From assembly GCF_002162135.1 (NCBI RefSeq), contig NZ_CP021382.1, forward strand, positions 868,001 to 932,000: a stretch of 64,000 nt of DNA, in the 5' to 3' direction. The notes below the pieces were generated by a model. The model did not search any database. It was not told the DNA's origin and was given only the letters and a program-made list of their open reading frames with translations. Numbering within the stretch: position 1 is the stretch's first letter; every line of letters begins with the position of its first letter. The translations under genes were made by a program, and so were the position numbers. Positions 10,436-26,911 of this stretch are shown here, piece after piece. The DNA comes from Cellvibrio sp. PSBB006. GTDB lineage: Bacteria; Pseudomonadota; Gammaproteobacteria; Pseudomonadales; Cellvibrionaceae.

Positions 10436-12664
10436 TTAAGCATCAGCCGTTTTCTGGCCGATTCGGAAAACGACAAATTCAGCGGGACGCAAGGGCGCCA
10501 CGCCCACTTCGCAAATCAGCCTGCCGTTATCAATATCGTTTTGCGTCATGGTGCTGCGATCGCAGCGCACAAAATACGCGGACGCTGGTTTACTGCCGAG
10601 CAGGCGGCCGTTTTTCCACTCATTGAATAAAAAGCTTTCCACCGTGGTAACCACATTGGCCCACAGCTTTTCCCCATTGGGTTCAAACACGGCCCACTGT
10701 GTGCCTTTATCAATGGAGCGTTCGAGATAAAGAAAGTAACGCCGCACATTCACGTACTTCCACTCAGGGTCACTGGATAAGGTGCGCCCGCCCCAGACAC
10801 GATGACCGCGACCGGCAAACGAACGCAGACAATTAATACCGTTGGGGTTGAGTAATTCCTGCTGGAATTTATTGATGTCCTGTTCAAACCGAAGCGCGCC
10901 CAATACCGGTGTATTGGCTGGTGCCTTGTGCACCCCGAAGTCAACATCAGTTCGCGCATAAATGCCGGCCATAAAACCGGAGGGCGGTAAATTAATGGTT
11001 TGCGATTGGCCGGTGGGATCAGACGTAACAACCCAGGGCGTGTAGAGTGCGAGGCGGGAATCATCAAAGTTATCGCGGAAAGCGCGCACTTCCGACAGGC
11101 TCATATTTTCACGGCTGTCGACCAATCCGATGCGGTAACGCATCTTTATGCAATGTTTAAGTAACTCTGCGACAACGGCTTGATGATTATCCGGATCATT
11201 CGCTGCCGCCGGTGTCATCACGATAGAAATATCATCAATTTCTTCCAACGCGGCCAAACCGGTGGAACCCTGTTGCTCATCCGTTTCGCCGGCGTAATCG
11301 ATTGCAATCGGCAAGTTTCCATCGGTGCCGCCCGCCAGCGTAATGATGTAACGGGGATCATCAAAGGAGTCTTCGTCAGGGTTTACTAAATCAGTATTGA
11401 ATAACGCAAAAAGCGCAGTATGTAATTGTTCAATACTTCCTTCTGCTGTTACTGCAATGGGTTGGGTTAAACCATCCAGTTTCTTTTCCGGGTCGTGTCG
11501 CAAGGCGCGGGAAACGAAATTTCTCCGGGTGCTATCCAGAGAGAGCCCGGCTGCGCGATATGCCACCTCTCCCCTACCGGGTGTTCCTTCATCCTCAACG
11601 CCGACTTTCCGCCGAATCACGTCCAGGGAAAATTCACGTTGTATATAAACGCCTTTTACCTCGTTGGGATAAAGGGCCAGGTGTTCCAGATCTAATGCTA
11701 TGGGCTCACCGGGTTCATCACCTTCTTCTGCTGGAGGTAAGGGATCAAGCGTGAGCGTATCGCCCGTCTGATTAATCGTGCCACGAAATATCAAACGATC
11801 ATCCAGCTCAAGCTCGATATGGCCATTTTCTGCCAAGGGTGCATTGAGCCTTATTTCGACCGGCGTATCACCAACCAAGGGACCGCTTGGTGGTGCAGAC
11901 AATGACGCATGGCGGAAGCTTGATGGCAGCTCATCAAATACTTCATTACTGATACCCTCACCTAACGCAGCAACATCAACTTCGACAGAACTGCTCGCAG
12001 GGGGCGTATCTTCAGGCGGCGTGTTTCTTACTTGCGCTGTTGAGCCAGCCAGAAAAGCAAATCCGGTTTCCGTTTTGGTTGCTACAACTTGTAACGACAG
12101 CAGAGGAAAATTTTCCTGTGGATGCGAAGGCGTTTCATCGAATTGATCCCTGGCGATGCCCGTCAGTGAAAGCAATCCCACAGCGCCAACAGGAATGTCA
12201 TCTGCCAGGGAATAGCTGCGGGTTTTGAGTAAGCTTTGCGTATCTTCCCAAAGCACTTCGACATCAAAATTGCCACCGGAACCGGGAAAGCGCGCTTCTA
12301 TACTTAAACCTTGCGCCGCCGCGCCAGCAGTTCCCGCCGTACTGCCGGCACCGCTGGTATCCGTATCGTTACCGCCGTTTACGACGCGCGCGACAAATAA
12401 TTGCTTGCCGCCATTCTCAAAGAATGCGCGTGCGGCTAGCGCGGTGTAATTAATATGGATTTCATCGCCGAATGTCAGGGAACCGGGGTCGCCATAAATC
12501 CGCTCATATTCGTTATAGCTGGTGATGACTTCCGGTGCGCCGCGCACGGGACCATAACGGGTCGGCCCCGCGATGGCGGCCACACTGGTGCCTACACCTT
12601 CGATAGATTTTGAGCGGAAACTGACTTCTTCGACAAACACTCCAGGAGCAAGATATTCCGGCAT
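10436..12664 (-). CDS. main contractile sheath protein
   Basis: The 742-residue protein starts MPEYLAPGVFVEEVSFRSKS and continues IEGVGTSVAAIAGPTRYGPV, the standard opening of phage tail sheath proteins. The C-terminal half shows the sheath core (VHKAPANTPVLGALRFEQDI, then GINCLRSFAGRGHRVWGGRT and YVNVRRYFLYLERSIDKGTQ). Its length is well above the roughly 350 to 500 residues of minimal sheaths. A large insertion between about residues 200 and 480, rich in Pro and acidic residues, probably makes a surface-exposed domain. AAGGA precedes the ATG. It would form the outer contractile layer. Confidence 0.95.
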   Translation of the reverse strand: MPEYLAPGVFVEEVSFRSKSIEGVGTSVAAIAGPTRYGPVRGAPEVITSYNEYERIYGDPGSLTFGDEIHINYTALAARAFFENGGKQLFVARVVNGGNDTDTSGAGSTAGTAGAAAQGLSIEARFPGSGGNFDVEVLWEDTQSLLKTRSYSLADDIPVGAVGLLSLTGIARDQFDETPSHPQENFPLLSLQVVATKTETGFAFLAGSTAQVRNTPPEDTPPASSSVEVDVAALGEGISNEVFDELPSSFRHASLSAPPSGPLVGDTPVEIRLNAPLAENGHIELELDDRLIFRGTINQTGDTLTLDPLPPAEEGDEPGEPIALDLEHLALYPNEVKGVYIQREFSLDVIRRKVGVEDEGTPGRGEVAYRAAGLSLDSTRRNFVSRALRHDPEKKLDGLTQPIAVTAEGSIEQLHTALFALFNTDLVNPDEDSFDDPRYIITLAGGTDGNLPIAIDYAGETDEQQGSTGLAALEEIDDISIVMTPAAANDPDNHQAVVAELLKHCIKMRYRIGLVDSRENMSLSEVRAFRDNFDDSRLALYTPWVVTSDPTGQSQTINLPPSGFMAGIYARTDVDFGVHKAPANTPVLGALRFEQDINKFQQELLNPNGINCLRSFAGRGHRVWGGRTLSSDPEWKYVNVRRYFLYLERSIDKGTQWAVFEPNGEKLWANVVTTVESFLFNEWKNGRLLGSKPASAYFVRCDRSTMTQNDIDNGRLICEVGVAPLRPAEFVVFRIGQKTADA

Positions 12665-12722
12665 GACCAGATTCCTTTTGCGTAGGTTAATGGGGCCGTA
12701 ACGGCATGTTCATAAAAACGGT

Positions 12723-13586
12723 TTAACGCTGTCTTAGCACAATAAAATTTTTGTCCTGACTGGTGATGCGCATTGCATTACCCGGCGTTACTGCTAACTC
12801 GATTGCAGGCAAGAAATCATCTGCCTCGGTAAAGCTCTCAATATCTGCATCGACTAATTGATCCGGATTGATCACATTGTCTTCGTCCAGATTCGTGTTT
12901 TCTTCCTCGTTATCCGTTTCCTCATCAATCGCAGCCATTTGAACTGTTAACACAGCGGCGTAAGTGGACGAAGGGGCATCCTTCGCCAGTGCCGGCATAC
13001 GATTTAATGGCAAAATAAAATCGCCGTGCGCGTCCGCTTGTGCGATAAAACGCAAGGGGTCACCCACCGTTGGCGTTACTACCGCCGTCACTAGAGCCCA
13101 GGCGGCAGGCTTCCAGGATTGATCTTGCGGGGGTTGATCATCCTCCGCGTCATACATCACCGTACCGATCAATGCTCCGGCTGAGGGAATCACTGTGCCT
13201 GACGGCGAGCGATACAACGCAAGCCAGTGCCCCGTTCCCTGGCCTGCATCAATGGAAAACAATCGTGGGTTGAAATAGCGCCTGGCGGGCGAGATGCGAC
13301 CATGCAATGGATAGCTACCCGCAAGCGGACGGGAAAAATCTGTTTCATCGGGCAATACAATGCGTTGCATCGCTTCCGGTAGTTTGCGAAAAAATTGCAC
13401 TTGATGCGCTTTGCTGAGCACACGTAAATCGCGCGGCGGCTGATGCAAGGTCAAACTCCATGCATCGCGCACCATGGGGCGATGGTCCGGCGCTGAATAA
13501 CCGGTGGCGTCATAGCAGTGAAGGTAATCACTGCCGTGGCGCAACGGAATTTCAAGCAATTGCGACGTCAACATAACAGCGTCCAC
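12723..13586 (-). CDS. unknown eCIS-operon protein with acidic tract
   Basis: The 287-residue protein is not one I recognise. It has no signal peptide or membrane segment. The middle (GALIGTVMYDAEDDQPP, then AWALVTAVVTPTVGDPLRFI and AQADAHGDFILPLNRMPAL) looks like a small beta-sandwich of the kind seen in carboxypeptidase-regulatory-like domains. It is followed by a strongly acidic tract (DEETDNEEENTNLDEDN) near residue 225. The start shown is a GTG at 13586; an in-frame ATG four codons later has GTGGA 7 bases upstream and is about as likely. Lying between the tube-terminator and sheath genes, it may be a structural or assembly component. Confidence 0.7.
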   Translation of the reverse strand: MDAVMLTSQLLEIPLRHGSDYLHCYDATGYSAPDHRPMVRDAWSLTLHQPPRDLRVLSKAHQVQFFRKLPEAMQRIVLPDETDFSRPLAGSYPLHGRISPARRYFNPRLFSIDAGQGTGHWLALYRSPSGTVIPSAGALIGTVMYDAEDDQPPQDQSWKPAAWALVTAVVTPTVGDPLRFIAQADAHGDFILPLNRMPALAKDAPSSTYAAVLTVQMAAIDEETDNEEENTNLDEDNVINPDQLVDADIESFTEADDFLPAIELAVTPGNAMRITSQDKNFIVLRQR

Positions 13587-13623
13587 TTAATCATTTTCCA
13601 TAAGCCTCTTTTCTGCATCCCGG

Positions 13624-14217
13624 TCAGGCGCCTTTTATCACGTTCATCGGCGTAACAAGCGTTTGCACCAGCGGTCCATTGACCCTTTCCGGTACCGGTA
13701 GCAAGCGCACCGTTTTAACCAGAAAAGGTACTGATAATTTGTAACTGCGCGGCAGGCCATCCCAGATACGCAACAAATCTTCCGTACTCATGTCTTCCGG
13801 AATAATTTGCACACTTTCGTTATCCCGCCAGAACGCATCTGCACCACCGATGTGGGAAATATCCAGATCCAGCGATGCCCCCAGATGTTGTAATCCCCAA
13901 CTGATCAACGCACTTTCGTTTTCACCGGTATCCGTCCAGGCAACCAATAGAAAATGCAAATTTATCGGCAACTCCGGTTGCATGGGTTTGGTTGTGCTGG
14001 TGGGATTCAGATATCGGTTTCTGCCAAACGGATCTACCGAAACACGGTGTAGATAAATGCCAAGGTTATTGCCTGTCGGCTCCGCGTCCAGCTCTTTGGT
14101 GCCCAGAATCAAAACGCCGGGCGAGGTAATAAAACTGGCGAGATCTGCTTCGGCACGCAGCTCCAGAAAATTCCTTAATGCTTCCAATATCGCTGGAACT
14201 GCCCTGAACGATGCCAC
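13624..14217 (-). CDS. DUF4255/Pvc16-type tube terminator
   Basis: The 197-residue protein fits DUF4255 (Pvc16 N-terminal domain, Afp16 group). It shows AVPAILEALRNFLELRAEAD, NNLGIYLHRVSVDPFGRNRY and LPINLHFLLVAWTDTGENES, all regular landmarks of the family, and SYKLSVPFLVKTVRLL near the end. Afp16-type proteins end the growing tube and set particle length. The start is GTG at 14217 with a strong GGAGGT 8 bases upstream. It is the first gene of the eCIS operon, so the promoter must lie in the 14218-14654 intergenic region. The C-terminus is short, so it is the N-domain-only form. Confidence 0.9.
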   Translation of the reverse strand: MASFRAVPAILEALRNFLELRAEADLASFITSPGVLILGTKELDAEPTGNNLGIYLHRVSVDPFGRNRYLNPTSTTKPMQPELPINLHFLLVAWTDTGENESALISWGLQHLGASLDLDISHIGGADAFWRDNESVQIIPEDMSTEDLLRIWDGLPRSYKLSVPFLVKTVRLLPVPERVNGPLVQTLVTPMNVIKGA

Positions 14218-14571: not shown

Positions 14572-14600
14572 TGCATCCAAATTTACGCCCTGCGCGTATT
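14572..14600 (+). promoter_or_regulatory. probable ECF promoter of the sigma factor gene
   Basis: TGCATCCAAAT at 14572-14582 and CGTATT at 14595-14600 are spaced exactly like the motif pair upstream of the DUF4331 gene (16122-16150). The 11-base upstream element is identical in both, and the downstream element keeps CGT. The ECF start codon is 54 bases after the downstream element. Two identical elements at the two ends of one gene cluster is the expected pattern of sigma autoregulation plus target activation. The element resembles the TGATCC-CGTA type promoters of some ECF groups. Confidence 0.7.
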
Positions 14601-14654
14601 AGCTGCGTTAACCCCTATTTCTATACTCACACAATAAATAGAGACACTAATCTT

Positions 14655-15203
14655 ATGGATGACTCGCACCAGCATTACCTGCGCTTGTTAAGCGCCACCG
14701 CGCAAGGTGACCGAACGGCATTTTCAGAGCTTTACCATGACACGGCGGGAAAACTCTACGCCATTAGTTTGCAGATGCTGCACCGACGCGATTGGGCCGA
14801 GGATGCGGTACAAGAGGCCTATGTGCGCATCTGGCACAACGCGGGGGAGTATCAACAGGAAAAAGGTACCGTTCTCACCTGGATGATCAGCATCGTGCGT
14901 TATCGTGCCCTGGATATGCTTCGCGCCAGCAAAAGTCGACGTGAAAACAGCGGCGATGAACACCTTAATGAAGCTGAGGATGATCGCTCCCCGGAGCTTG
15001 ATTTATATGAAAAACGCGAGCGTGTACGCATTGATAAGTGCATGGATCATCTTGAGGGGCCACAGCGCCAGGCTATTCATCTGGCGTACTTTAAAGGGCT
15101 GACACACATCGAGGTGTGTGACCATCTGGAATCGCCCCTTGGTTCTGTTAAAAGCTGGATTCGTCGCGGACTGGAACGCTTAAAAAGGTGTCTTGAATCA
15201 TGA
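14655..15203 (+). CDS. ECF RNA polymerase sigma factor
   Basis: The 182-residue protein has the two sigma-70 regions of ECF factors. Region 2 shows DRTAFSELYHDTAGKLYAIS, then DWAEDAVQEAYVRIWHNAGE and TWMISIVRYRALDMLR. Region 4 shows LEGPQRQAIHLAYFKGLTHI and LGSVKSWIRRGLERLK, a helix-turn-helix. The ATG at 14655 is favoured over an upstream in-frame ATG at 14571, because that one overlaps the promoter motif. It overlaps the anti-sigma gene by 4 bases (ATGA), so the pair is coupled. It probably directs transcription of itself and of the DUF4331 operon. Confidence 0.93.
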   Translation: MDDSHQHYLRLLSATAQGDRTAFSELYHDTAGKLYAISLQMLHRRDWAEDAVQEAYVRIWHNAGEYQQEKGTVLTWMISIVRYRALDMLRASKSRRENSGDEHLNEAEDDRSPELDLYEKRERVRIDKCMDHLEGPQRQAIHLAYFKGLTHIEVCDHLESPLGSVKSWIRRGLERLKRCLES

Positions 15204-15910
15204 ATTATCTTATCGAAGAACGTCAAAATGCCTTAGCGTCAGAGTATGTTCTCGGCACACTCCACGGACCCGCTCGTGTGCGCTATCAGCGTCTCCTGAT
15301 GCAGTATCCATCCATGCGCCAGAGTCTTTGGTATTGGGAAAGATACCTTAACGCGATGGGCGGTGCCCTGCCCTCTGTAGCACCGCGTCCACAGGTATGG
15401 GAGAACATTCAAGCCCGGCTCGGCTTTGACGAAACATCTCAAGCACCGGTTAACAATGTCGTGCGCTTGCCCATCCAGCGCACACCACACCGGTGGCAAT
15501 GGCTCGCGGGACTATCAACAGCGGCGGCAATTTTGTTCGCGGTAATGTTGATGTGGCCGCAGCCTGCTTCAGTGCCGCCAGCACCAGCACAAGTCGCTAT
15601 TGTGCAAGGTGACAAAGCTCAGGCCCTGTGGCTAATAGAGTTGGGGGCTGACACACTTGAAGTTCAGGCAACGGATAAATTGCAAGCTCAAACCGACAAG
15701 GATTATGAGTTGTGGCTGGTGGCCGCTGATGGACGCGCGCCAATCTCTCTCGGTGTATTACCAAAACAAGGCAAGCTGGTGCTGCCACGCATAGCGTTGA
15801 TGGATCAGGTGGAGATTGCGGCCTTGGCCGTTAGCCTGGAACCATTAGGCGGATCGCCGACGGGCCAACCCACCACCGTGTTATACACCGCTGAATTAGT
15901 CACGCTGTAA
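15200..15910 (+). CDS. RskA-type anti-sigma factor
   Basis: The 236-residue protein is an anti-sigma-K type regulator. The N-terminal cytoplasmic part (LASEYVLGTLHGPARVRYQR, then MRQSLWYWERYLNAM) is the anti-sigma domain. One transmembrane helix follows (WLAGLSTAAAILFAVMLMW, about residues 99-117). The periplasmic C-terminal domain shows ALWLIELGADTLEVQATDKL, DKDYELWLVAADGRAPISLG and LEPLGGSPTGQPTTVLYTAE, the RskA signature. It would hold the sigma factor at the membrane until an envelope signal releases it. A terminator follows, so the target operon is transcribed separately. Confidence 0.92.
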   Translation: MNYLIEERQNALASEYVLGTLHGPARVRYQRLLMQYPSMRQSLWYWERYLNAMGGALPSVAPRPQVWENIQARLGFDETSQAPVNNVVRLPIQRTPHRWQWLAGLSTAAAILFAVMLMWPQPASVPPAPAQVAIVQGDKAQALWLIELGADTLEVQATDKLQAQTDKDYELWLVAADGRAPISLGVLPKQGKLVLPRIALMDQVEIAALAVSLEPLGGSPTGQPTTVLYTAELVTL

Positions 15911-15967
15911 CGAGTATGCGACCAACATAGAACACAGTTGCAATAAAAATAAAGCAGCGAACAATAG

Positions 15968-15995
15968 AAGGCCCTTCGTGGGCCTTTTTATTTTG
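15968..15995 (+). terminator. rho-independent terminator after the sigma/anti-sigma pair
   Basis: AAGGCCC and GGGCCTT pair across the loop TTCGT and are followed by TTTATTTT. It lies 58 bases after the anti-sigma stop and 127 bases before the second copy of the ECF promoter motif, so it separates the regulator pair from the operon it controls. Confidence 0.85.
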
Positions 15996-16121
15996 CTGTT
16001 TCCCGCCATTCGCTTATCGCTATCTCCCCATCGACATCACGCCTATTCGTCGACGTCTTATCCATAGATGTTCACATAAATCCTCGCGCCCCCAGAGAAT
16101 CAAAAAAAATTTGAAAAATAC

Positions 16122-16150
16122 TGCATCCAAATAACCACTTGAGCCGTTTG
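16122..16150 (+). promoter_or_regulatory. probable ECF promoter of the DUF4331 operon
   Basis: TGCATCCAAAT at 16122-16132 and CGTTTG at 16145-16150 repeat the element upstream of the sigma gene with the same 12-base gap between the two parts. The DUF4331 start codon is 36 bases after the downstream element. An AT-rich tract lies just upstream (16100-16120). Confidence 0.7.
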
Positions 16151-16186
16151 GAGTATGCAACCCACATCTTACGAGAAGGAAATATC

Positions 16187-17776
16187 ATGAAGACTACCTA
16201 TCTATCGGCAGTTATCGGCGCACTGTGTGCCGGTCTGATTTCTGTCAACAGCCTGGCGTCCAGCCACCGCGAAGCACCTAATATCACCCGTATGCCAACA
16301 CTCGACTCGACTGACTTTTATGCGTTTAACAGCTATGAAAGCGGGCGTGGTGATTATGTCACCCTGATTGCCAACTACATTCCACTGCAAGATGCCTACG
16401 GCGGCCCAAATTATTTTGCGATGGACCCGGCGGGTGTTTATAGCATTCACATTGACAATAATGGCGATGCCGTTGAAGACCTGACGTATGAGTTTCGTTT
16501 CACCCAGGCATTGGCCGATGGTGAAGGTGTGAAGCTGACGGTAGGCCCGGAGGGCAATACGCGATCCGTTGCCGTGCCTTTGAAAAATGTCGGTGGTGTA
16601 TCGGCTGGGGATATGTCCGCAGTAAATTTTAGCGAGAGCTACAGCGTCAAGCTGATTACCGGCAATCGCCGCACCGGCACCTCTGCCGATGTGATGAATG
16701 CAACCACGCCCGGTACCAGTTTTAATAAACCGTTGGATTTTATCGGCACCAAGAGCTTCAGTTCGATCGAAGCCTATGCCACTTATGCAGACAGTTTTAT
16801 CTACGACATTACTATTCCCAATTGCAGCATGGCCGGTCGCGTCTTCGTCGGTCAACGCAAAGATCCCTTCGTCGTAAATCTGGGTAAGACCTTTGATCTG
16901 GTGAATTACGTTCCGGTCGAAGGTGACAGTGCGCCTGGTGCTGGCGACGGTGAAGGCTTCCCGGGCGGGATTACACAAGCCGCCGGCAATGATGATCTGC
17001 AATTCAAAAATGTCACGGCGATTGCGCTTGAAATTCCCAAGGCGTGCCTGACCGGTGGCGGCAATGGGAGCATTGGTACCTGGACTACCGCCAGTCTGCC
17101 CCAGGCACGAATCCTCAACCCGCAAGCCGCATTCAATAACACCGAAGTCAATGGCGGAGCATTAACCCAGGTGTCGCGTTTGGGTAATCCACTGGTGAAT
17201 GAGCTGGTTATCGGCTTGAAAGATAAAGATCGCTTTTCCAGCGCAGAGCCCAAAGATGACGGTCAGTTTGCCGACTATGTTACCCATCCATCCTTACCGG
17301 AATTGTTGAATATCCTCTTCAAGGACGCCGTTAATACCACCCTCGGTGCCAGCCTGCCGACTTTGGCACCCACCAACATTCCACGCACAGATCTGGTAAC
17401 AGCGTTCCTCACCGGCTTCCCCGGCGTTAACCAATTAGCAACGGTCACGCCCTCGGAAATGCTGCGCCTGAACACAGGCATCGGCGCTACCCCGGCCGCA
17501 GAGCAATCGCCATTCGGTGTAGCTGGCAATGATCTGGCGGGTTTCCCCAATGGTCGCCGTCCCGGTGATGATGTGGTTGATATTGCGTTGCGTGTGGTGA
17601 TGGGACGCCTGTGTTATCCGATACCGGTTAATGGTGTTGATACCGACCTCGGCTTGTGTGATCCGGCTGACGCCAATGTCGGCAACGTGGCCTTTACCGA
17701 TGGCGCGCCGCTTGATGCATCAATGATGAAGGCGACCTTCCCCTATCTGGCCGATCCACTGCCAGGCTCACAATAA
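16187..17776 (+). CDS. secreted DUF4331-family protein
   Basis: The 529-residue protein matches DUF4331: after a signal peptide (AVIGALCAGLISVNSLAS) the mature protein opens SSHREAPNITRMPTLDSTDF and YAFNSYESGRGDYVTLIANY, the family hallmark. Later landmarks are YSIHIDNNGDAVEDLTYEFR, RVFVGQRKDPFVVNLGKTFD, and PDDGQFADYVTHPSLPELLN. The SHREAP segment and the many Asp residues are often suspected of metal or cofactor binding, but the role of the family is unknown. The ATG at 16187 has AGAAGGA upstream. It is the first and, to judge from the strong site, the most expressed gene of the five-gene operon. Confidence 0.88.
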   Translation: MKTTYLSAVIGALCAGLISVNSLASSHREAPNITRMPTLDSTDFYAFNSYESGRGDYVTLIANYIPLQDAYGGPNYFAMDPAGVYSIHIDNNGDAVEDLTYEFRFTQALADGEGVKLTVGPEGNTRSVAVPLKNVGGVSAGDMSAVNFSESYSVKLITGNRRTGTSADVMNATTPGTSFNKPLDFIGTKSFSSIEAYATYADSFIYDITIPNCSMAGRVFVGQRKDPFVVNLGKTFDLVNYVPVEGDSAPGAGDGEGFPGGITQAAGNDDLQFKNVTAIALEIPKACLTGGGNGSIGTWTTASLPQARILNPQAAFNNTEVNGGALTQVSRLGNPLVNELVIGLKDKDRFSSAEPKDDGQFADYVTHPSLPELLNILFKDAVNTTLGASLPTLAPTNIPRTDLVTAFLTGFPGVNQLATVTPSEMLRLNTGIGATPAAEQSPFGVAGNDLAGFPNGRRPGDDVVDIALRVVMGRLCYPIPVNGVDTDLGLCDPADANVGNVAFTDGAPLDASMMKATFPYLADPLPGSQ

Positions 17777-17786
17777 GGAGCACATC

Positions 17787-18284
17787 ATGAACAACCATCA
17801 TGTGTTATTGCCGCTGCTACTTGCCACTGCATTGATCGGGTGTGGTGGAAGCGACGGCAAACCGAAACCACCGAAGATGAATACTGCCCCGGTTGCAACG
17901 GCCGCCAGTTTTACAACCCAGGCGGATACCGAACTCAGCGACATGCTTGAAGGGATGGACGCTGATCGGGACTCCCTGACTTTTGCCGCTGTGGAGCAGC
18001 CCTCTCAAGGCACATTAACGCTTACTGCCACTGGCAGCTTTACTTATTTGCCCAACGCGACAGTGACAGGTATGGATCAATTTACCTTCACGGTTTCGGA
18101 TGGCAAAGCTACTTCCATGACCGCAACGGTGAATATCACCATCGAAGCACTGCAAGTGTCCTTCAACGATTACAGCCGTGCAGCGTTTGAACAATCAGCC
18201 ACCGATGAACCGTTACCGGTTAATGGCCGTGAGTTTGAACAGGATGTGACCGACCCGATGGCTTACGACGATCTGTTGGAATAA
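17787..18284 (+). CDS. lipoprotein with one cadherin-like/Ig-like domain
   Basis: The 165-residue protein has a lipoprotein signal (LLLATALIGCGGSDG), with the Cys at residue 19. The next 100 residues form one bacterial Ig-like/VCBS-type repeat: APVATAASFTTQADTELSDM, then ADRDSLTFAAVEQPSQGTLT and ATGSFTYLPNATVTGMDQFT. The last 45 residues (ALQVSFNDYSRAAFEQSATD) are not similar to anything I know. It starts 10 bases after the DUF4331 stop with AAGGAG upstream, so it is expressed with it. It may act as an accessory or adaptor for the DUF4331 protein at the membrane; that is inference. Confidence 0.8.
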   Translation: MNNHHVLLPLLLATALIGCGGSDGKPKPPKMNTAPVATAASFTTQADTELSDMLEGMDADRDSLTFAAVEQPSQGTLTLTATGSFTYLPNATVTGMDQFTFTVSDGKATSMTATVNITIEALQVSFNDYSRAAFEQSATDEPLPVNGREFEQDVTDPMAYDDLLE

Positions 18285-18361
18285 ATCAGGGCTGAACATA
18301 AAAACACACATCGCCAGGGATGGCGTTATCGATTCGATGCGTATTCATCAGGAATTTGCTT

Positions 18362-19447
18362 ATGAAAAAATGGCTTGTTTTTATCGTCTTAACCATCGCA
18401 ACACAAACAACATTTGCCGCGAAGACAATTCCCGCATCAGCGGATACGGTGATTGCTACCTGGCCCGTATCACGTTCAACGCCAGTACAGGAAGCACAGC
18501 TAGCGACACGTATGCGCCCCGCTGACTCCCATGCCGTAGCACAACTCGCCAACGCCTATTTACGCGAGGCTGCCCTGCCCGGCCACTCGCGCTTCTACGG
18601 TTTGGCCCAGGCCGCGCTTCAACCCTTGATCAACCAGGGTACTGGCAATGCGGATATTTGGCTCGCCTGGGCTCAGGTACAACAGCACCAACACGCCTTC
18701 AAGGATGCCCTCGCCGCATTGGAAAAAGTCAAGCAGCAGCAACCGGACAACATCAACGCCCATTTGCTGGCGGCACGTATTTTTTTAATCCAGGACAACG
18801 CCGATGCAGCACGCCAGTCCTGCCTGATATTACTTGGCAACGCCGACCTTCTTACGGCCAGCGGCTGTGCGCTAGAGGTAACCAGTTTCCAGAGTGATCT
18901 CGCACAAAGTTATCAGCAACTGGCATCACTGGTTGAACGCGAACAACTGCCACAAGATGAACGTGGTCCCTGGCTGGCGCAGATACTGGCAGATATGGCG
19001 CTACGTCTGAAAAATCCGCTTGCAGCTGAAAAATGGCTCGACACCCAGCGCAAAGAAAACGCCAGTGTCAACCTTCTGAGTCAATGGGCAGATGTACAAC
19101 TCGCGCTCGATCAACCGAAAAAATTAGTACAGACATTACAGCCGATCGTTCAAGGCGCTACCGATGTTGACGATGCACTTTTATTACGTTTGGCCTTGGC
19201 GGAGAAAAAAATGGGCGGTGAGCAATGGCGAACAGAATTACGCGAACGTATCACGCTACGCGAACAACGCATGGACAATCAACATGCCAACGAGATTGCA
19301 CGTTATTACCTGGATATTGACCCTCAGCCGCAGCAAGCGCTTTATTGGGCACAAATAAACTGGCAAAACGCGCGCGAATACAGCGACCGTGAATTACTCG
19401 AACGCGCAAGAGCAAGTGCAGCACAGCAACAGAAGGATAATAACTAA
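18362..19447 (+). CDS. periplasmic TPR-repeat protein
   Basis: The 361-residue protein has a signal peptide (WLVFIVLTIATQTTFAA). The rest is mostly helical hairpins of TPR type: AQLANAYLREAALPGHSRFY, then ADIWLAWAQVQQHQHAFKDA, DNINAHLLAARIFLIQDNAD, and LADMALRLKNPLAAEKWLDT. Such solenoids usually hold partner proteins. Its stop overlaps the start of the HupE-like gene by one base (TAATG). The ATG at 18362 is preferred to an upstream in-frame TTG because the signal peptide follows at once. The function is unknown. Confidence 0.85.
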   Translation: MKKWLVFIVLTIATQTTFAAKTIPASADTVIATWPVSRSTPVQEAQLATRMRPADSHAVAQLANAYLREAALPGHSRFYGLAQAALQPLINQGTGNADIWLAWAQVQQHQHAFKDALAALEKVKQQQPDNINAHLLAARIFLIQDNADAARQSCLILLGNADLLTASGCALEVTSFQSDLAQSYQQLASLVEREQLPQDERGPWLAQILADMALRLKNPLAAEKWLDTQRKENASVNLLSQWADVQLALDQPKKLVQTLQPIVQGATDVDDALLLRLALAEKKMGGEQWRTELRERITLREQRMDNQHANEIARYYLDIDPQPQQALYWAQINWQNAREYSDRELLERARASAAQQQKDNN

Positions 19448-20571
19448 TGCGATCACGGTTCATTTTTCTCATTGCATCTCTATGGTTGTTGAGCCAAGCA
19501 ACTTTCGCTCATCAGTTGAGTACAGCCTATCTCAACGGGACGCTTGGCGAGACCGGAATACTTGAAGGCGAATGGCAAATTCGGCTTTACGATCTTGAAC
19601 AGGCCATTGGTGTCGACAGCAATCAGGATGGCGAATTGTTGTGGGGCGAGCTGCAAACGCGCGCGCAAGAAGCCCATGAATACCTTTCCCACCATTTGCG
19701 GTTCGAGCGCGGTGAATTGCCGTGCTCCCTGTTGATTGAATCAGCGTGGCAGATCACCGAGCATTTCAACGAGGGCTATCTCGTATTACCGGTTCGCGCG
19801 CAATGTCCAATAACCGGCGATTTGCACATTCACTACAGCGCGTTCTTCAAGGAAGACAGTGAGCATAAATTATTGGTTTCTGTTGCGACCGAATCAATAA
19901 CGGAAACTGACAATCACATCAGCAGCCGCGTGATATCCAACGTACAGCGCAACGTCACACTCAGTCACAATAACGGCAGTACCTGGCTTACTTTTCAAGA
20001 ATTCGTCATCCAAGGGGTAATCCACATCTGGAAAGGACTCGACCACATTTTATTCCTGCTATCGCTGTTATTGACCTGTGTACTGACCCGCAAAAAGCAT
20101 CACTGGGTTGGCAAAAGCAGCGTGCGCGATATCGTGATAGATACCACCTGGATTGTCACTGCCTTTACCCTCGCCCATTCCATCACACTTACCGCTACGG
20201 CCTTGGGTTGGATTAATTTTCCCAGCCGCTGGGTGGAAGTAGGCATCGCCGCATCGGTTGCGATTGCAGCGCTCAATAATATTTTTCCGGTCGTTATACG
20301 CCTGGGCTGGCTGACCTTTGCGTTTGGGTTGCTGCATGGAATGGGTTTTGCTGGTGTGCTCGGTGAACTCGGCCTGCCGGCGGATCAAAAAGTGTTAACG
20401 GTACTGGCATTTAATATTGGTGTGGAGATAGGACAAATGGTGATTGTGATCGCAGTATTACCGCTGCTTATCTTTGTGCGCAACAGCATCTGGTACTCGC
20501 GCTACAGCTTGACTGCGGCATCGGTCGTGATCTCTCTGGTTGCACTGCAATGGGTATTCGAACGTTTTTGA
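19447..20571 (+). CDS. HupE/UreJ-type membrane protein with periplasmic EF-hand-like loop
   Basis: The 374-residue protein has a signal peptide, a periplasmic domain of about 170 residues, and a C-terminal membrane domain with about six helices. The HupE/UreJ_2 hallmarks are HIWKGLDHILFLLSLL, FTLAHSITLTATALGW, FGLLHGMGFAGVLGELGLP and NIGVEIGQMVIVI. The histidines and aspartate in these motifs would line a metal path as in nickel or cobalt permeases. The periplasmic part carries DSNQDGELLWGE, which fits the 12-residue EF-hand loop. This suggests a cation transporter or sensor, but the substrate is unknown. Confidence 0.88.
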   Translation: MRSRFIFLIASLWLLSQATFAHQLSTAYLNGTLGETGILEGEWQIRLYDLEQAIGVDSNQDGELLWGELQTRAQEAHEYLSHHLRFERGELPCSLLIESAWQITEHFNEGYLVLPVRAQCPITGDLHIHYSAFFKEDSEHKLLVSVATESITETDNHISSRVISNVQRNVTLSHNNGSTWLTFQEFVIQGVIHIWKGLDHILFLLSLLLTCVLTRKKHHWVGKSSVRDIVIDTTWIVTAFTLAHSITLTATALGWINFPSRWVEVGIAASVAIAALNNIFPVVIRLGWLTFAFGLLHGMGFAGVLGELGLPADQKVLTVLAFNIGVEIGQMVIVIAVLPLLIFVRNSIWYSRYSLTAASVVISLVALQWVFERF

Positions 20572-20599
20572 AATGTTTACATTATTTGATGGAGACAAG

Positions 20600-22669
20600 A
20601 TGAATAAGCATGCACGCAGGATTGCCTGGCTGACTGGAATAACGACACTATCCACACTCTCGGCTTACACGACTGCCGATAAAATCGGTATTGAAGAAAT
20701 CAGGGTCCTGGGCCGCAATGCACACGTTATCGGTCAGCGTATATCCGCATCCGAAGGCAGTATTTCACAAGAGGATCTCGCGATACGGCCACTGCTCAGG
20801 GTCGGCGAAATACTTGAAGCAGTACCCGGGCTCGTCGCCACACAACACAGTGGCAGCGGCAAGGCGAACCAGTTTTTCTTGCGCGGTTTCAATCTTGATC
20901 ACGGAACGGATTTCGCAACCAGTGTTGATGGTATGCCCGTCAATATGCGCACTCATGGCCACGGCCAAGGCTACACCGATATCAACTTTATTATTCCGGA
21001 ATTGGTCGGTGGTATTCATTACAAAAAAGGCCCTTATTACGCAGATGTCGGTGATTTTTCTGGTGCAGGTTCTGCCGATATTCTCACTGCCCACACCACC
21101 GAAGATCGCTTTCTGATTGGAGTGGGTGAACACGATTTTTACCGCGCCCTGTTCATGGGTGAAGCTGACGCCGCTGCGGGTAAATTAGTTTATGGTATTG
21201 AATATCAAACTTATCAAGGCCCGTGGGACGACATCAATGAAGACGTGGGCAAGACCAATGTCTGGCTGAAGCAGCAATGGACGCAAGGAAATTCTTCATT
21301 TCATTTGCTGGCCATGGCCTACGATAACCAATGGAATTCTGCGGACCAGATACCCCAACGCGCCGTGCAACAAGGGTTAATAAGCGACCTCGGTTCAATT
21401 GACACCAGTGTCGGCGGCGAATCCAGCCGCTACAGTTTATCGGGTACATTTCGCCATCAATATACCGATGAAAATGTGTTACAGGCGCACCTGTACGTCA
21501 TTGATTATGATATGACGTTATGGTCCAACTTCAGCTATTTTACCGACCCAGATGGCGACCAATTTCAACAGATTGATGACCGAAAAATTTATGGCGGTGA
21601 CCTTAGCTGGACGTTCAGCCGTGAACTCCTGGGAAAGCCCTCTCAATACACCTTCGGGTTGCAAACCCGGACAGATGACATTAATGAGGTCGGTTTGAAT
21701 CGCACCCATGCGCGGCAATTCATCAGTACTATCCGCACCGATGCCGTGGAAGAAACCAGCCACAGCCTTTATTGGCAACACAAATGGGCTCTCACACCGT
21801 CACTGCGTAGCGTGCTGGGTCTGCGTTACGATTATTTTTCTTTTGATGTTTCACCGCTGTCTGCTGCAAATCCGGATTCTTTGATACTCAATCGTGGCGA
21901 AAAACATGATGACATTGCCACCAGCTCGCTCTCCTTGATATATGCGCTTGATGATCAGCAGGAAATCTATTCCAGTGTGGGCCAGGGCTTTCACAGTAAC
22001 GATGCCCGTGGCGTGACCTTGCGTGTTGATCCCGTTACTGCCGAAGCGCTCGACCCGGCAGACCCGTTAGTCGATACGCTCGGCTATGAAATCGGATGGC
22101 GAGGTAATTTTGAAAAACTCAACACGTCCGTTGCATTATGGCAACTGGACATTGACTCCGAATTGTTATTCGTCGGTGATGAAGGCGTTACAGAAGATAC
22201 CGGTGTCGGCAGTACCCGTCATGGTCTCGAACTGACCGCTTATTACCGCCTCAACCACCACTGGATGTTTGATGTGGAATATTCCTTTAGCGATGCAGAG
22301 TTTGATCAAGCGCTTGATGGTTCGACTCGCATTCCCGGGGCGCTGGAACATGTATTAACCACTGGCGTTAACTGGCAATTTAGTGACCATCTCTTTACAC
22401 ACCTGCGCCTGCGCCACATCGCCGAATACCCTCTTGATGGTGGAGCCACTGCTGATGCCAGCACATTAGTGAACTGGCGTATGGGGTATCAGGTTAAAGA
22501 TCAGGTGAGAGTGACCCTTGATATACTCAATCTGTTCGACTCCAATGATCATGACATTGAATATTTTTATGCGTCGCAACTATCGGGGGAAGCCGAGCCC
22601 ACGGACGATCATCATTATCATGTCTTTGAACCTCGCACAGCGCGGCTGGCGATTGAATGGTACTTTTAA
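20600..22669 (+). CDS. TonB-dependent outer membrane receptor
   Basis: The 689-residue protein is a TonB-dependent receptor. After a signal peptide comes a TonB-box-like EIRVLG segment and the plug domain (PLLRVGEILEAVPGLVATQH, then GKANQFFLRGFNLDHGTDFA and GFNLDHGTDFATSVDGMPVN). The barrel follows and ends with a C-terminal aromatic residue (RLAIEWYF). It would bring a substrate too large for porins into the periplasm using TonB energy. A GGAG precedes the ATG at 20600, and the start lies 28 bases after the HupE-like stop, so it closes the operon. Together with DUF4331 and HupE it suggests uptake of a metal or metal complex; the substrate is not shown. Confidence 0.93.
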   Translation: MNKHARRIAWLTGITTLSTLSAYTTADKIGIEEIRVLGRNAHVIGQRISASEGSISQEDLAIRPLLRVGEILEAVPGLVATQHSGSGKANQFFLRGFNLDHGTDFATSVDGMPVNMRTHGHGQGYTDINFIIPELVGGIHYKKGPYYADVGDFSGAGSADILTAHTTEDRFLIGVGEHDFYRALFMGEADAAAGKLVYGIEYQTYQGPWDDINEDVGKTNVWLKQQWTQGNSSFHLLAMAYDNQWNSADQIPQRAVQQGLISDLGSIDTSVGGESSRYSLSGTFRHQYTDENVLQAHLYVIDYDMTLWSNFSYFTDPDGDQFQQIDDRKIYGGDLSWTFSRELLGKPSQYTFGLQTRTDDINEVGLNRTHARQFISTIRTDAVEETSHSLYWQHKWALTPSLRSVLGLRYDYFSFDVSPLSAANPDSLILNRGEKHDDIATSSLSLIYALDDQQEIYSSVGQGFHSNDARGVTLRVDPVTAEALDPADPLVDTLGYEIGWRGNFEKLNTSVALWQLDIDSELLFVGDEGVTEDTGVGSTRHGLELTAYYRLNHHWMFDVEYSFSDAEFDQALDGSTRIPGALEHVLTTGVNWQFSDHLFTHLRLRHIAEYPLDGGATADASTLVNWRMGYQVKDQVRVTLDILNLFDSNDHDIEYFYASQLSGEAEPTDDHHYHVFEPRTARLAIEWYF

Positions 22670-24751: not shown

Positions 24752-26911
24752 ATGTTAACGGCAAATCCAAAGGGCTTAAGCCTGGCAGTCGCCGCCCTCA
24801 GCGTTGGTATCGCTGCTGCGGGTTACGGCAATTCTGCCGAGGCCGCCGTGTGTAGCCACGTCATTAGTAACGAATGGAACAGTGGTTACACTGCCGCCAT
24901 TCGCATTACCAATGATGGCAACACCGCGATCAACGGCTGGAATGTGAGCTGGCAATATAATGCCAACCGCGTGACCAGTTCGTGGAACGCCAACCTCAGC
25001 GGTAGCAATCCATACTCAGCAACCAACCTCGGATGGAACGGCTCAATTCAGCCCGGCCAGACCGTCGAGTTCGGTTTCCAGGTCAACAAAAACGGCGGCA
25101 GCGCTGAGAACCCTACCGTCAACGGTGCGGTTTGTGGCAGCAATGGCAACCAATCATCCGCCGCGAGCAGTACCGTTAGCTCCGTGGCTTCTTCAGTCGC
25201 ATCCAGTTCCAGCCCCAACAACAATACGGGCGGACAATGTAACTGGTACGGCACTTTGTACCCCTTGTGTACCAGCACCCAGAGTGGCTGGGGTTGGGAA
25301 CAAAACCGCAGCTGTATCTCCCTCAGCACCTGTAGCAGCCAGCCGGCGCCTTACGGTCCGGTGGGTAACAGTTCCAGTGCACCTTCAAGCGTAGCCTCCA
25401 GCGCACCTTCAAGCGTTGCATCAAGCGCACCATCGAGTGTTGCCTCTAGTGCACCGTCCAGTGTTGCATCCAGTGCGCCCTCTAGCGTTGCATCAAGCGT
25501 CGCTTCAAGCGTTGCCTCCAGCGTGGCCAGTTCAGTCTCTTCCAGTACCCCAACTAGCGGTCGCTGGCGTGTAGATTCAACCGGTAAGATCACCAAGAAC
25601 GGCAGCATTTTCCCCGTTCAGTGTGGCGCCTGGTTCGGTCTTGAAGGTCAACATGAGCCAACCGATGCTGAAAACAATCCTGGCGGTGCGCCGATGGAAT
25701 TGTACGTAGGCAACATGTGGTGGGCGGATACCGGTCGTGACATGCAACAAACCATGACCGAAATCAAAAACGTGGGTATCAACGTACTGCGTATACCTAT
25801 CGCACCACAAACCCTTGATCCAACTGATCCGCAAGGTATCGGCGACATTCGTTCCGGTGGCGTGCTGAAAAACCATGAATCTGTGCGTCAAACAAACGCG
25901 CGTCAGGCTCTGGAAGATTTCATCAAGCTGGCTGACCAGAACGATCTTGAAGTCATCATCGACATCCATTCCTGCTCCAACTACGTAGGCTGGCGTGCCG
26001 GCCGTCTGGATGCAAATCCACCTTACGCGGACGCGACTCGCGAAGGGTATGACTTCACCCGTGAAGAATACTCCTGTGGCGGTGGTGCGCCGAATGATGA
26101 TCCGTACAATGAGCAACTGTGGCTGGAAGACCTGCGTACCATTGCAGGGTTTGAGCAGTCTCTCGGTGTGGACAACATCCTCGGTATCGATATCTTCAAC
26201 GAACCATGGGATTACACCTGGGACGAGTGGGCTACCCTCGCTGAAAGCGCTTACCAGGCCATCAACGAAGTTAACCAGAATGTGCTGATCGTGGTGGAAG
26301 GTGTAGGTTCTGCGAAGTCTGACGGCACTGATGTTGCCCACGGCAGCATGGACTACAACCCGAACTGGGGTGAGAACTTCTTCGGCTTCGCTGAGCGTCC
26401 GCTGAACATTCCGAAAGAGCGTCTGGTGCTGTCTCCGCACACCTACGGTCCTTCCGTGTTCGTTCAACGTCACTTCATGACTGGCGAATGTGCTGAGCTG
26501 GAAGGCGATGAAGCTGGCAATGCTGACTGCCAGATCACCATCGACCCAGCCAAACTTGAGCCGGGCTGGCAAGAACACTTTGGTTACCTGCGTGACCAAG
26601 GCTATGCCATGATCATCGGTGAGTTCGGCGGCAACATGGACTGGCCACAAAACACTCGTGCAGCCGAGCAGGAAATGTGGGGCCATATCACCACCAATGT
26701 GGATCAACAATGGCAAAACGCGTTTGTTGATTACATGATCGAAAAAGATATCGAGGCCTGTTACTGGTCCATCAACCCGGAATCTGCCGACACCGGCGGT
26801 TTGTATGAGCACTCATACGTCCCCGATGTTAACGAATCCGGTTGGGGCACCTGGCTGAACTTCGATAGTAGAAAAACCAGCCTGCTGCAACGTTTGTGGA
26901 ACGGTAACTAA
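24752..26911 (+). CDS. modular cellulase CBM2-CBM10-GH5
   Basis: The 719-residue secreted endoglucanase has these parts: a signal peptide to about residue 32; a CBM2 cellulose-binding domain to about 130 (EWNSGYTAAIRITNDGNTAI, GWNVSWQYNANRVTSSWNAN); a serine linker; a CBM10 near 165-205 (QCNWYGTLYPLCTSTQSGWG, WEQNRSCISLSTCS); a PSSVASSA repeat linker; and a GH5 catalytic domain from about 268. The GH5 part shows GINVLRIPIAPQ, DIFNEPWDYT (acid/base Glu) and IGEFGGNM (nucleophile Glu). This architecture is typical of Cellvibrio cellulases. It would cut internal beta-1,4 bonds of cellulose outside the cell. Confidence 0.95.
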   Translation: MLTANPKGLSLAVAALSVGIAAAGYGNSAEAAVCSHVISNEWNSGYTAAIRITNDGNTAINGWNVSWQYNANRVTSSWNANLSGSNPYSATNLGWNGSIQPGQTVEFGFQVNKNGGSAENPTVNGAVCGSNGNQSSAASSTVSSVASSVASSSSPNNNTGGQCNWYGTLYPLCTSTQSGWGWEQNRSCISLSTCSSQPAPYGPVGNSSSAPSSVASSAPSSVASSAPSSVASSAPSSVASSAPSSVASSVASSVASSVASSVSSSTPTSGRWRVDSTGKITKNGSIFPVQCGAWFGLEGQHEPTDAENNPGGAPMELYVGNMWWADTGRDMQQTMTEIKNVGINVLRIPIAPQTLDPTDPQGIGDIRSGGVLKNHESVRQTNARQALEDFIKLADQNDLEVIIDIHSCSNYVGWRAGRLDANPPYADATREGYDFTREEYSCGGGAPNDDPYNEQLWLEDLRTIAGFEQSLGVDNILGIDIFNEPWDYTWDEWATLAESAYQAINEVNQNVLIVVEGVGSAKSDGTDVAHGSMDYNPNWGENFFGFAERPLNIPKERLVLSPHTYGPSVFVQRHFMTGECAELEGDEAGNADCQITIDPAKLEPGWQEHFGYLRDQGYAMIIGEFGGNMDWPQNTRAAEQEMWGHITTNVDQQWQNAFVDYMIEKDIEACYWSINPESADTGGLYEHSYVPDVNESGWGTWLNFDSRKTSLLQRLWNGN
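25374..25545 (+). repeat. 24-bp tandem repeats coding the PSSVASSA linker
   Basis: About five copies of a 24-base unit encode the eight-residue repeat APSSVASS, followed by shorter SVAS units. The codons vary between copies while the peptide stays the same, so selection acts on the linker protein sequence. The repeats are a flexible, possibly glycosylated spacer between CBM10 and GH5. Confidence 0.9.

Follow-up and report, generated by a model that had tools for sequence, protein, structure and literature searches.

PMC7509140, on the SigK/RskA pair of a sigma factor with its anti-sigma factor (extracytoplasmic function (ECF) sigma factor families ECF18/ECF19), reports that 94% of ECF18, 56% of ECF19 and <2% of other families share a conserved pair of cysteines, that the Yersinia SigK-RskA pair behaves alike, and that the SigK site is conserved among Gram-negatives. 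On the transport side, permeases of the HupE family are understood as importers of metal into the cytoplasm, in line with PMC12537917, which describes the anglerases. Here we analysed a locus from Cellvibrio sp. PSBB006 in which parts of both kinds occur together. The window, the whole stretch of 64,000 nucleotides, covers G000:C1:868001-932000 of a genome that forms a single contig of 5.26 Mb. Based on the list of open reading frames (ORFs) and family searches, seven plus-strand genes form two units, a sigma/anti-sigma pair (14655-15910) and a five-gene target operon (16187-22669) for a DUF4331 protein, a lipoprotein, a tetratricopeptide repeat (TPR) protein, a HupE permease and a TonB-dependent receptor, all as named in a preliminary description of this DNA. 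We show that the promoters and the gene set are conserved among relatives, and we consider it somewhat probable that the locus encodes an envelope system, under its own regulation, by which a transition metal or a metal complex is acquired.

Promoters and gene set in relatives

Two equally spaced sites had been proposed before the sigma gene and before DUF4331, and both were found exactly at these places, reading TGCATCCAAAT-N12-CGTATT and TGCATCCAAAT-N12-CGTTTG, respectively. Within the window, TGCATCCAAAT-N12-CGT has just these two matches, and 0 of 100 shuffles hold two. The same motif can be written in short form as TGCATCC-N16-CGT. A scan of the whole 5.26-Mb genome with the short form matched both promoters, with 12 matches in total versus 5 for a reversed control; the short form alone is non-specific, and the scan neither shows nor excludes further targets. 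Besides the two promoters, nine of the ten matches lie inside ORFs of at least 150 residues. The other (L195; G000:C1:3775084-3775109, minus strand) lies outside such ORFs, 60 bases upstream of the gene for a 263-residue DUF2807 protein, and is a possible third target of the sigma factor.

Relatives were then represented by the best 80 of 371 DUF4331 relatives, a set that leans to close relatives; the closest are Cellvibrio and other gammaproteobacterial metagenome-assembled genomes, with 79-85% identity in DUF4331. Allowing one mismatch in TGCATCC and a spacing of 15-18, we found the motif upstream of DUF4331 in 76 of the 79 loci where this region could be read, and upstream of the sigma gene in 56 of 77, compared to 1.1 and 0.8 expected from Markov-resampled sequences (L090 was left out of the first count, its contig starting too close, and L090, L101 and L105 out of the second, having no sigma match). 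Among the 76, TGCATCC is exact in 57 and has one mismatch in 19, and the spacing is 16 in 73 and 17 in 3; every sigma-gene site has spacing 16. The motif, whose absence before orthologous sigma and DUF4331 genes had beforehand been named as refuting, is thus present before both. A stricter pattern, run over 1,499,157 bases on both strands, gave 130 matches versus 0 for the reversed pattern, with 69 before DUF4331, 49 before the sigma gene, 6 before the TonB receptor, which in some lineages has its own promoter copy, and 6 elsewhere. Three of these last (L058, L106, L107) are at expected DUF4331 or sigma promoter places where ORF calling set the start too early or missed it, two (L044, L064) are on the reverse strand inside anti-sigma genes, and one (L049) precedes an unidentified ORF.

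The analysis was extended to 36 more distant loci. The spacing-16 motif stands before DUF4331 in 15 of the 20 loci holding an ECF sigma factor related to that of the window (>110 bits), compared to 2 of the 16 that lack such a factor (p 0.0002). Of those 20 loci, 10 have it upstream of the sigma gene; L147 and L162, which duplicate named loci, and L170, which gave no DUF4331 alignment, were left out. Kept in distant loci with a related ECF and rare in those without, the motif therefore travels with the sigma factor.

The gene set is conserved as well. In called ORFs of the 80 loci, the lipoprotein was found in 79, the TPR protein in 78, the anti-sigma factor in 77, the sigma factor in 75, HupE in 64 and the TonB receptor in 16, with DUF4331 as the best conserved member. 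Four members of the proposed five-gene operon (DUF4331, lipoprotein, TPR, HupE) thus recur in relatives, but the TonB receptor falls outside the conserved core. In 36 order-, class- and phylum-level loci with DUF4331 >100 bits, counted by hand with two duplicates of named loci included and the partial matches L170, L171, L172 and L178 left out, a TPR relative is adjacent to DUF4331 in 32 and HupE in 31. Two Streptomycetaceae loci keep the gene order with a NicO-family protein of long N-terminal part in the place of HupE (L183:10987-12636, L189:11937-13817); that of L183 has a signal-peptide-like start, then a histidine and further on an EF-hand-like loop. In the place of the lipoprotein, L143, L145, L151, L154, L174 and L188 have short lipoproteins (76-85 residues) that, by eye, share an AFDDLF/AYDDLF-like ending with the window lipoprotein, and in other distant loci the lipoprotein has no such ending. 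The window protein may therefore be of this short type, with an Ig-like domain inserted. On plasmids, where 13 of 31 DUF4331 records were opened by hand-picking, not at random, and one more was reached through the receptor search, 8 of 13 loci have a TPR-type gene downstream (the TPR matches of L182 being below Pfam cut-offs) and 6 of these also have HupE or NicO.

Metal-handling parts and the DUF4331 protein

In the window HupE, the N-terminal domain ahead of PF13795 has the Ang-1 fold by structure comparison with the anglerase structure 9GCE; sequence searches for 9GCE with four queries found nothing, and the link is one of fold comparison. Its His22, placed by eye directly after the cleavage site, is invariant in 60 of 60 and in 35 of 35 (mostly distant) sequences, both sets including the window. 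In L112, L113, L116 and L064, the HupE-related ORF is the anglerase-type domain only (~170 residues), and in three of these loci the very next gene encodes a TonB receptor.

A family search with the window receptor returned plug, barrel and weak unrelated families and no STN domain, and a sequence search of solved structures gave none at 1e-5. Its relatives on plasmids were sampled by hand, not at random, as 13 loci out of 73 records: 7 have nikR/HoxN at most 5 kb away and 3 lie beside cobalamin genes, HupE or DUF4331; the seven nikR/HoxN-side relatives are ~36-41% identical to the window receptor. Separately, a Hymenobacter plasmid (L211) holds three DUF3500 genes alongside HupE and a window-receptor relative, possibly a second such gene set. 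The fold of the HupE domain and the neighbourhood of the receptor relatives give the earlier guess of a metal independent support.

The host has a NiFe-hydrogenase large-subunit homologue (L214:8806-10788; G000:C1 about 2455805-2457787) beside HypF, HypD and a HypE-like (AIR synthase-family) gene. Nickel superoxide dismutase gave no match in the host genome, and the search control also gave none. In a comparison of 194 genomes from the order, 18 of 26 carriers of the cassette have urease or a strong NiFe match, compared to 73 of 168 others (p 0.012), which lends weak support to a nickel role. Here carriers are the 26 genomes with full-length DUF4331, G008 and partial matches being counted as non-carriers; urease matches with E >1e-10 and NiFe matches with E >1e-20 were excluded as weak, and counts were taken by hand from tables. 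The likeliest metal would be nickel (or cobalt), with copper next.

DUF4331 belongs to a family with at least 7999 scored relatives in one search, on which a literature search (DUF4331, PF14224, IPR025566) found no paper. Across 48 aligned sequences, the start SSHREAP is near-invariant, and GFPNGRR with DD after it is shared as well; a profile search against solved structures matched only complement C3 fragments, with E 0.66 and worse. In the five opened of eight listed Rhodobacterales loci (L180, L181, L186, L215, L216), which are also the remaining five of the 13 plasmid loci, DUF4331 lies by type II secretion system (T2SS) genes; prepilin peptidase adjoins it in four, all whose stretch covers that side, and in four of five a small gene follows by annotation. 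This arrangement suggests a T2SS with a dedicated cargo. In addition, the Adhaeribacter DUF4331 has a type IX secretion system (T9SS) sorting tail, and a sortase gene follows DUF4331 in one Streptomycetaceae locus. Because of these contexts, DUF4331 is probably a secreted or surface protein, the simplest reading. We tentatively propose, as a possibility short of an even chance, that DUF4331 is a secreted, surface-held metal catcher, the bait end of a widespread protein-based route of metal acquisition (surface DUF4331 with lipoprotein, optional TonB receptor, TPR scaffold and an anglerase-HupE or NicO permease). Versions of this route would occur in Pseudomonadota, Actinomycetota and Bacteroidota, controlled in many gammaproteobacteria by a SigK-type sigma factor.

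An alternative is that the locus is a maturation system, in which DUF4331 itself would be the metalloprotein or metalloenzyme that is secreted; ahead of its type II export it would receive its metal in the periplasm from the lipoprotein, TPR protein and anglerase domain, and HupE and the TonB receptor would only supply the periplasm. The T2SS exports folded proteins, and T2SS genes accompany all five opened Rhodobacterales loci, three of which (L180, L181, L186) gave no TPR or HupE relatives on searching, with none annotated in the shown stretches of the other two. The four loci that keep the anglerase-type domain without the permease part, and the standing of DUF4331 as the best conserved member, point the same way. 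Against this, no enzyme-like fold was recognised for DUF4331, and HupE-family permeases, taken to move metal into the cytoplasm in line with PMC12537917, would deliver it on the wrong side of the membrane for an exported protein to be loaded. We regard a maturation role as less likely than metal acquisition, and as its main rival.

The SigK-type sigma factor and its promoter

The closest solved protein to the window sigma factor is M. tuberculosis SigK (4nqw, E 1.5e-28), with whose cysteines 133 and 183 its Cys129 and Cys179 align. All 76 aligned close sequences and all 20 distant ECFs scoring above 110 bits keep both cysteines; they are lacking in four distant ECF matches of lower score. On the NCBIfam SigK model NF007228 the window protein scores 150 bits, missing the cut-off of 226, and we therefore speak of a SigK-type pair, not of SigK itself. 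The ECF sigma factor with RskA-type anti-sigma factor of the preliminary description thus stands, and is made more specific as SigK/RskA-like. For the anti-sigma factor, a sequence search of solved structures gave nothing beyond one chance-level match.

The -35 base and one residue of sigma region 4 vary together. Among 55 loci with both promoters, TGAATCC precedes DUF4331 in six, five of which also have it before the sigma gene, compared to 0 of the 49 others there. The region 4 segment K[S/T]WIRR has threonine in L039-L042 and L118 (5 of 75 called sigma ORFs), in L107 and in the distant L144; L039-L042 and L107, all Thr sigmas, have TGAATCC before DUF4331, and L118 (Aliidiomarina, a separate lineage) has TGAATCC-N16-CGG at the same spacing. 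This last site is post hoc, found by relaxing CGT to CGN in three failed loci, of which L117 gave TGCATCC-N16-CGG and L105 nothing. Against the co-variation, L043 and L072 among the 70 Ser sigmas carry TGAATCC before DUF4331, and L144, a Thr sigma, shows no motif that could be recognised. Moreover, the six Thr/TGAATCC loci are not independent, five being Cellvibrio-like or closely related gammaproteobacterial and one Aliidiomarina, which amounts to about two evolutionary events. Together, the co-variation is good, though not perfect, evidence that the sigma factor reads this promoter, and such recognition is strongly implied by the sequences.

The same likeness to SigK could instead mark a redox or envelope-stress regulon in the mycobacterial style, whose targets repair or guard the envelope with metal handling secondary. 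SigK being the best solved-structure relative and the invariance of both cysteines agree with this, as does a fasciclin-domain gene near DUF4331 on a Streptomyces plasmid, fasciclin-domain proteins being a class controlled by mycobacterial SigK. However, the usual partners are HupE with a metal-binding-type domain, or NicO instead, and in some lineages a TonB receptor under its own promoter copy, so that we consider a stress regulon improbable. A chance motif beside loose neighbours of no shared function, to which the non-specificity of the short motif genome-wide might point, is already contradicted by motif conservation across families, its dependence on a nearby SigK-type gene and the sigma-promoter co-variation, and is hardly credible.

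Proposed mechanism and comparison with known systems

In the metal acquisition system that we favour, the RskA-type anti-sigma factor would hold the SigK-type sigma factor at rest, until an envelope or redox signal, plausibly tied to metal shortage, releases it. Once free, the sigma factor would act at the TGCATCC-N16-CGT promoters, driving transcription of both the target operon and the operon that encodes it. DUF4331 would be exported, and type II secretion would probably bring it to the cell surface, where, in association with the small lipoprotein, it would gather metal or a metal complex. In this genome, passage of the metal through the outer membrane would be by the TonB receptor. In the periplasm, the HupE anglerase domain with its N-terminal histidine would take the metal and pass it to the permease, with the TPR protein as a putative periplasmic scaffold. 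The dedicated envelope system with its own sigma factor that had been suggested earlier is supported in that it fits the conserved gene set and promoters; a role with metal, a position of DUF4331 at the surface and each handover step we infer.

Several observations weigh against metal acquisition. HupE is absent from 16 of the 80 loci, with only a short N-terminal part in 4 more, and the TonB receptor from 64 of the 80 stretches. The AlphaFold2 model of DUF4331 is poor (predicted local distance difference test, pLDDT, 60.6; input of 63 rather similar sequences), a Foldseek search with it gave no match at E <=0.001, and a metal site in DUF4331 is therefore hypothetical. The hydrogenase homologue has SGIC in its L1 motif, the usual first cysteine of the CGxC ligand motif being missing, although its second motif, DPCMNC, is intact. 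No urease and no cobN were found in the host genome; 8 of 26 carriers have neither urease nor a strong NiFe match, and the statistic ignores kinship among genomes that are not independent. Three of the 13 receptor plasmid loci show no metal gene, and L144 has a Thr167 sigma factor with no recognisable motif. Finally, the anglerase domain prefers copper over nickel in vitro, whereas the receptor contexts point to nickel, so that the choice between the two metals is tentative.

The features of the locus are listed in Table 1. The anti-sigma start overlaps the sigma stop. The terminator placed earlier between regulator pair and target operon is a probable one: for the 46-nt stretch with its stem the folding energy is -22.9 kcal/mol (z -6.1), and terminator-like patterns in general are about twice as common in the region as in shuffles (18 vs 9.5 expected).

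Table 1. Features of the sigma/anti-sigma and DUF4331 operons (window positions)
Feature	Position	Strand	Basis
Sigma/anti-sigma operon promoter, TGCATCC-N16-CGTATT	14572..14600	+	Pattern match; kept before 56/77 relatives
ECF sigma factor, SigK type (Cys129 and Cys179 match SigK cysteines)	14655..15203	+	Profile and structure-sequence searches
Anti-sigma factor, RskA_C domain	15200..15910	+	PF10099, E 2.4e-19
Probable intrinsic terminator separating both operons (stem 15966-15988, then T-rich tail)	15966..15996	+	Pattern scan and fold z -6.1
Target operon promoter, TGCATCC-N16-CGTTTG	16122..16150	+	Pattern match; kept in 76/79 relatives
DUF4331 protein, signal-peptide-like start (by eye), predicted secreted	16187..17776	+	PF14224, E 1.4e-148; T2SS, T9SS and sortase contexts in relatives
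Lipoprotein, lipobox (by eye) and Big_9 Ig-like domain; C-terminal segment like that of distant shorter lipoproteins	17787..18284	+	Family search, by-eye comparison
Exported TPR protein	18362..19447	+	ORF list and family search
HupE_UreJ_2 permease with N-terminal anglerase-like (Ang-1 fold) domain; presumed mature N-terminus His22	19447..20571	+	Family, alignment and fold comparison
TonB-dependent receptor, plug and barrel, accessory member	20600..22669	+	Family search; contexts of relatives

Among the neighbouring genes, a contractile injection-like cluster (extracellular contractile injection system (eCIS)- or phage-tail-like) with a phage sheath protein and a Pvc16_N domain protein lies on the minus strand at 10436-14217, and a secreted cellulase-like protein with Ser-rich linkers is listed as an ORF at 24752-26911. 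Four of the locus proteins were compared with anti-phage families, without a match.

The analysis offers a functional frame for the large DUF4331 family and the genes constantly found with it, gives the recently named anglerases a set of genomic partners, and brings out a natural sigma-promoter co-variation of one region-4 residue with one -35 base. It also makes two questions testable, namely the function of DUF4331 and what SigK-type factors sense in these Gram-negatives, for gene sets that recur in related form in several bacterial phyla.

Compared with known systems, the regulator pair resembles SigK/RskA, as presented in PMC7509140, in its sigma factor with adjacent RskA_C anti-sigma factor, both cysteines and a cassette with a conserved binding site; there the cassette is mpt83-sigK-rskA, and here the target is DUF4331-lipoprotein-TPR-HupE. 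FecI-FecR-FecA signalling likewise unites an ECF sigma factor, an anti-sigma factor and a TonB receptor within one locus, but here no STN domain was found on the receptor and the anti-sigma factor is of RskA type. The window HupE shares with anglerase Ang-1-HupE/UreJ-2 (PMC12537917; PDB 9GCE) an exported domain with a presumed N-terminal histidine and an Ig-like fold, followed by a HupE_UreJ_2 permease. It differs in that similarity to 9GCE is below sequence-search detection, and the main text of PMC12537917 is without DUF4331, tetratricopeptide, sigma or lipoprotein, its single TonB mention concerning DUF4198. To the NikR-linked nickel-type receptors the window receptor is linked by the identity of the seven plasmid relatives and by the gene's position, likewise beside an inner-membrane Ni/Co-type permease, although it lies in a sigma-promoter operon with DUF4331 and not beside nikR. 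No description of this combination or of its regulation was found in the literature searched, and its parts are of known kinds: a SigK/RskA pair, an anglerase-HupE and a putatively nickel-type TonB receptor.

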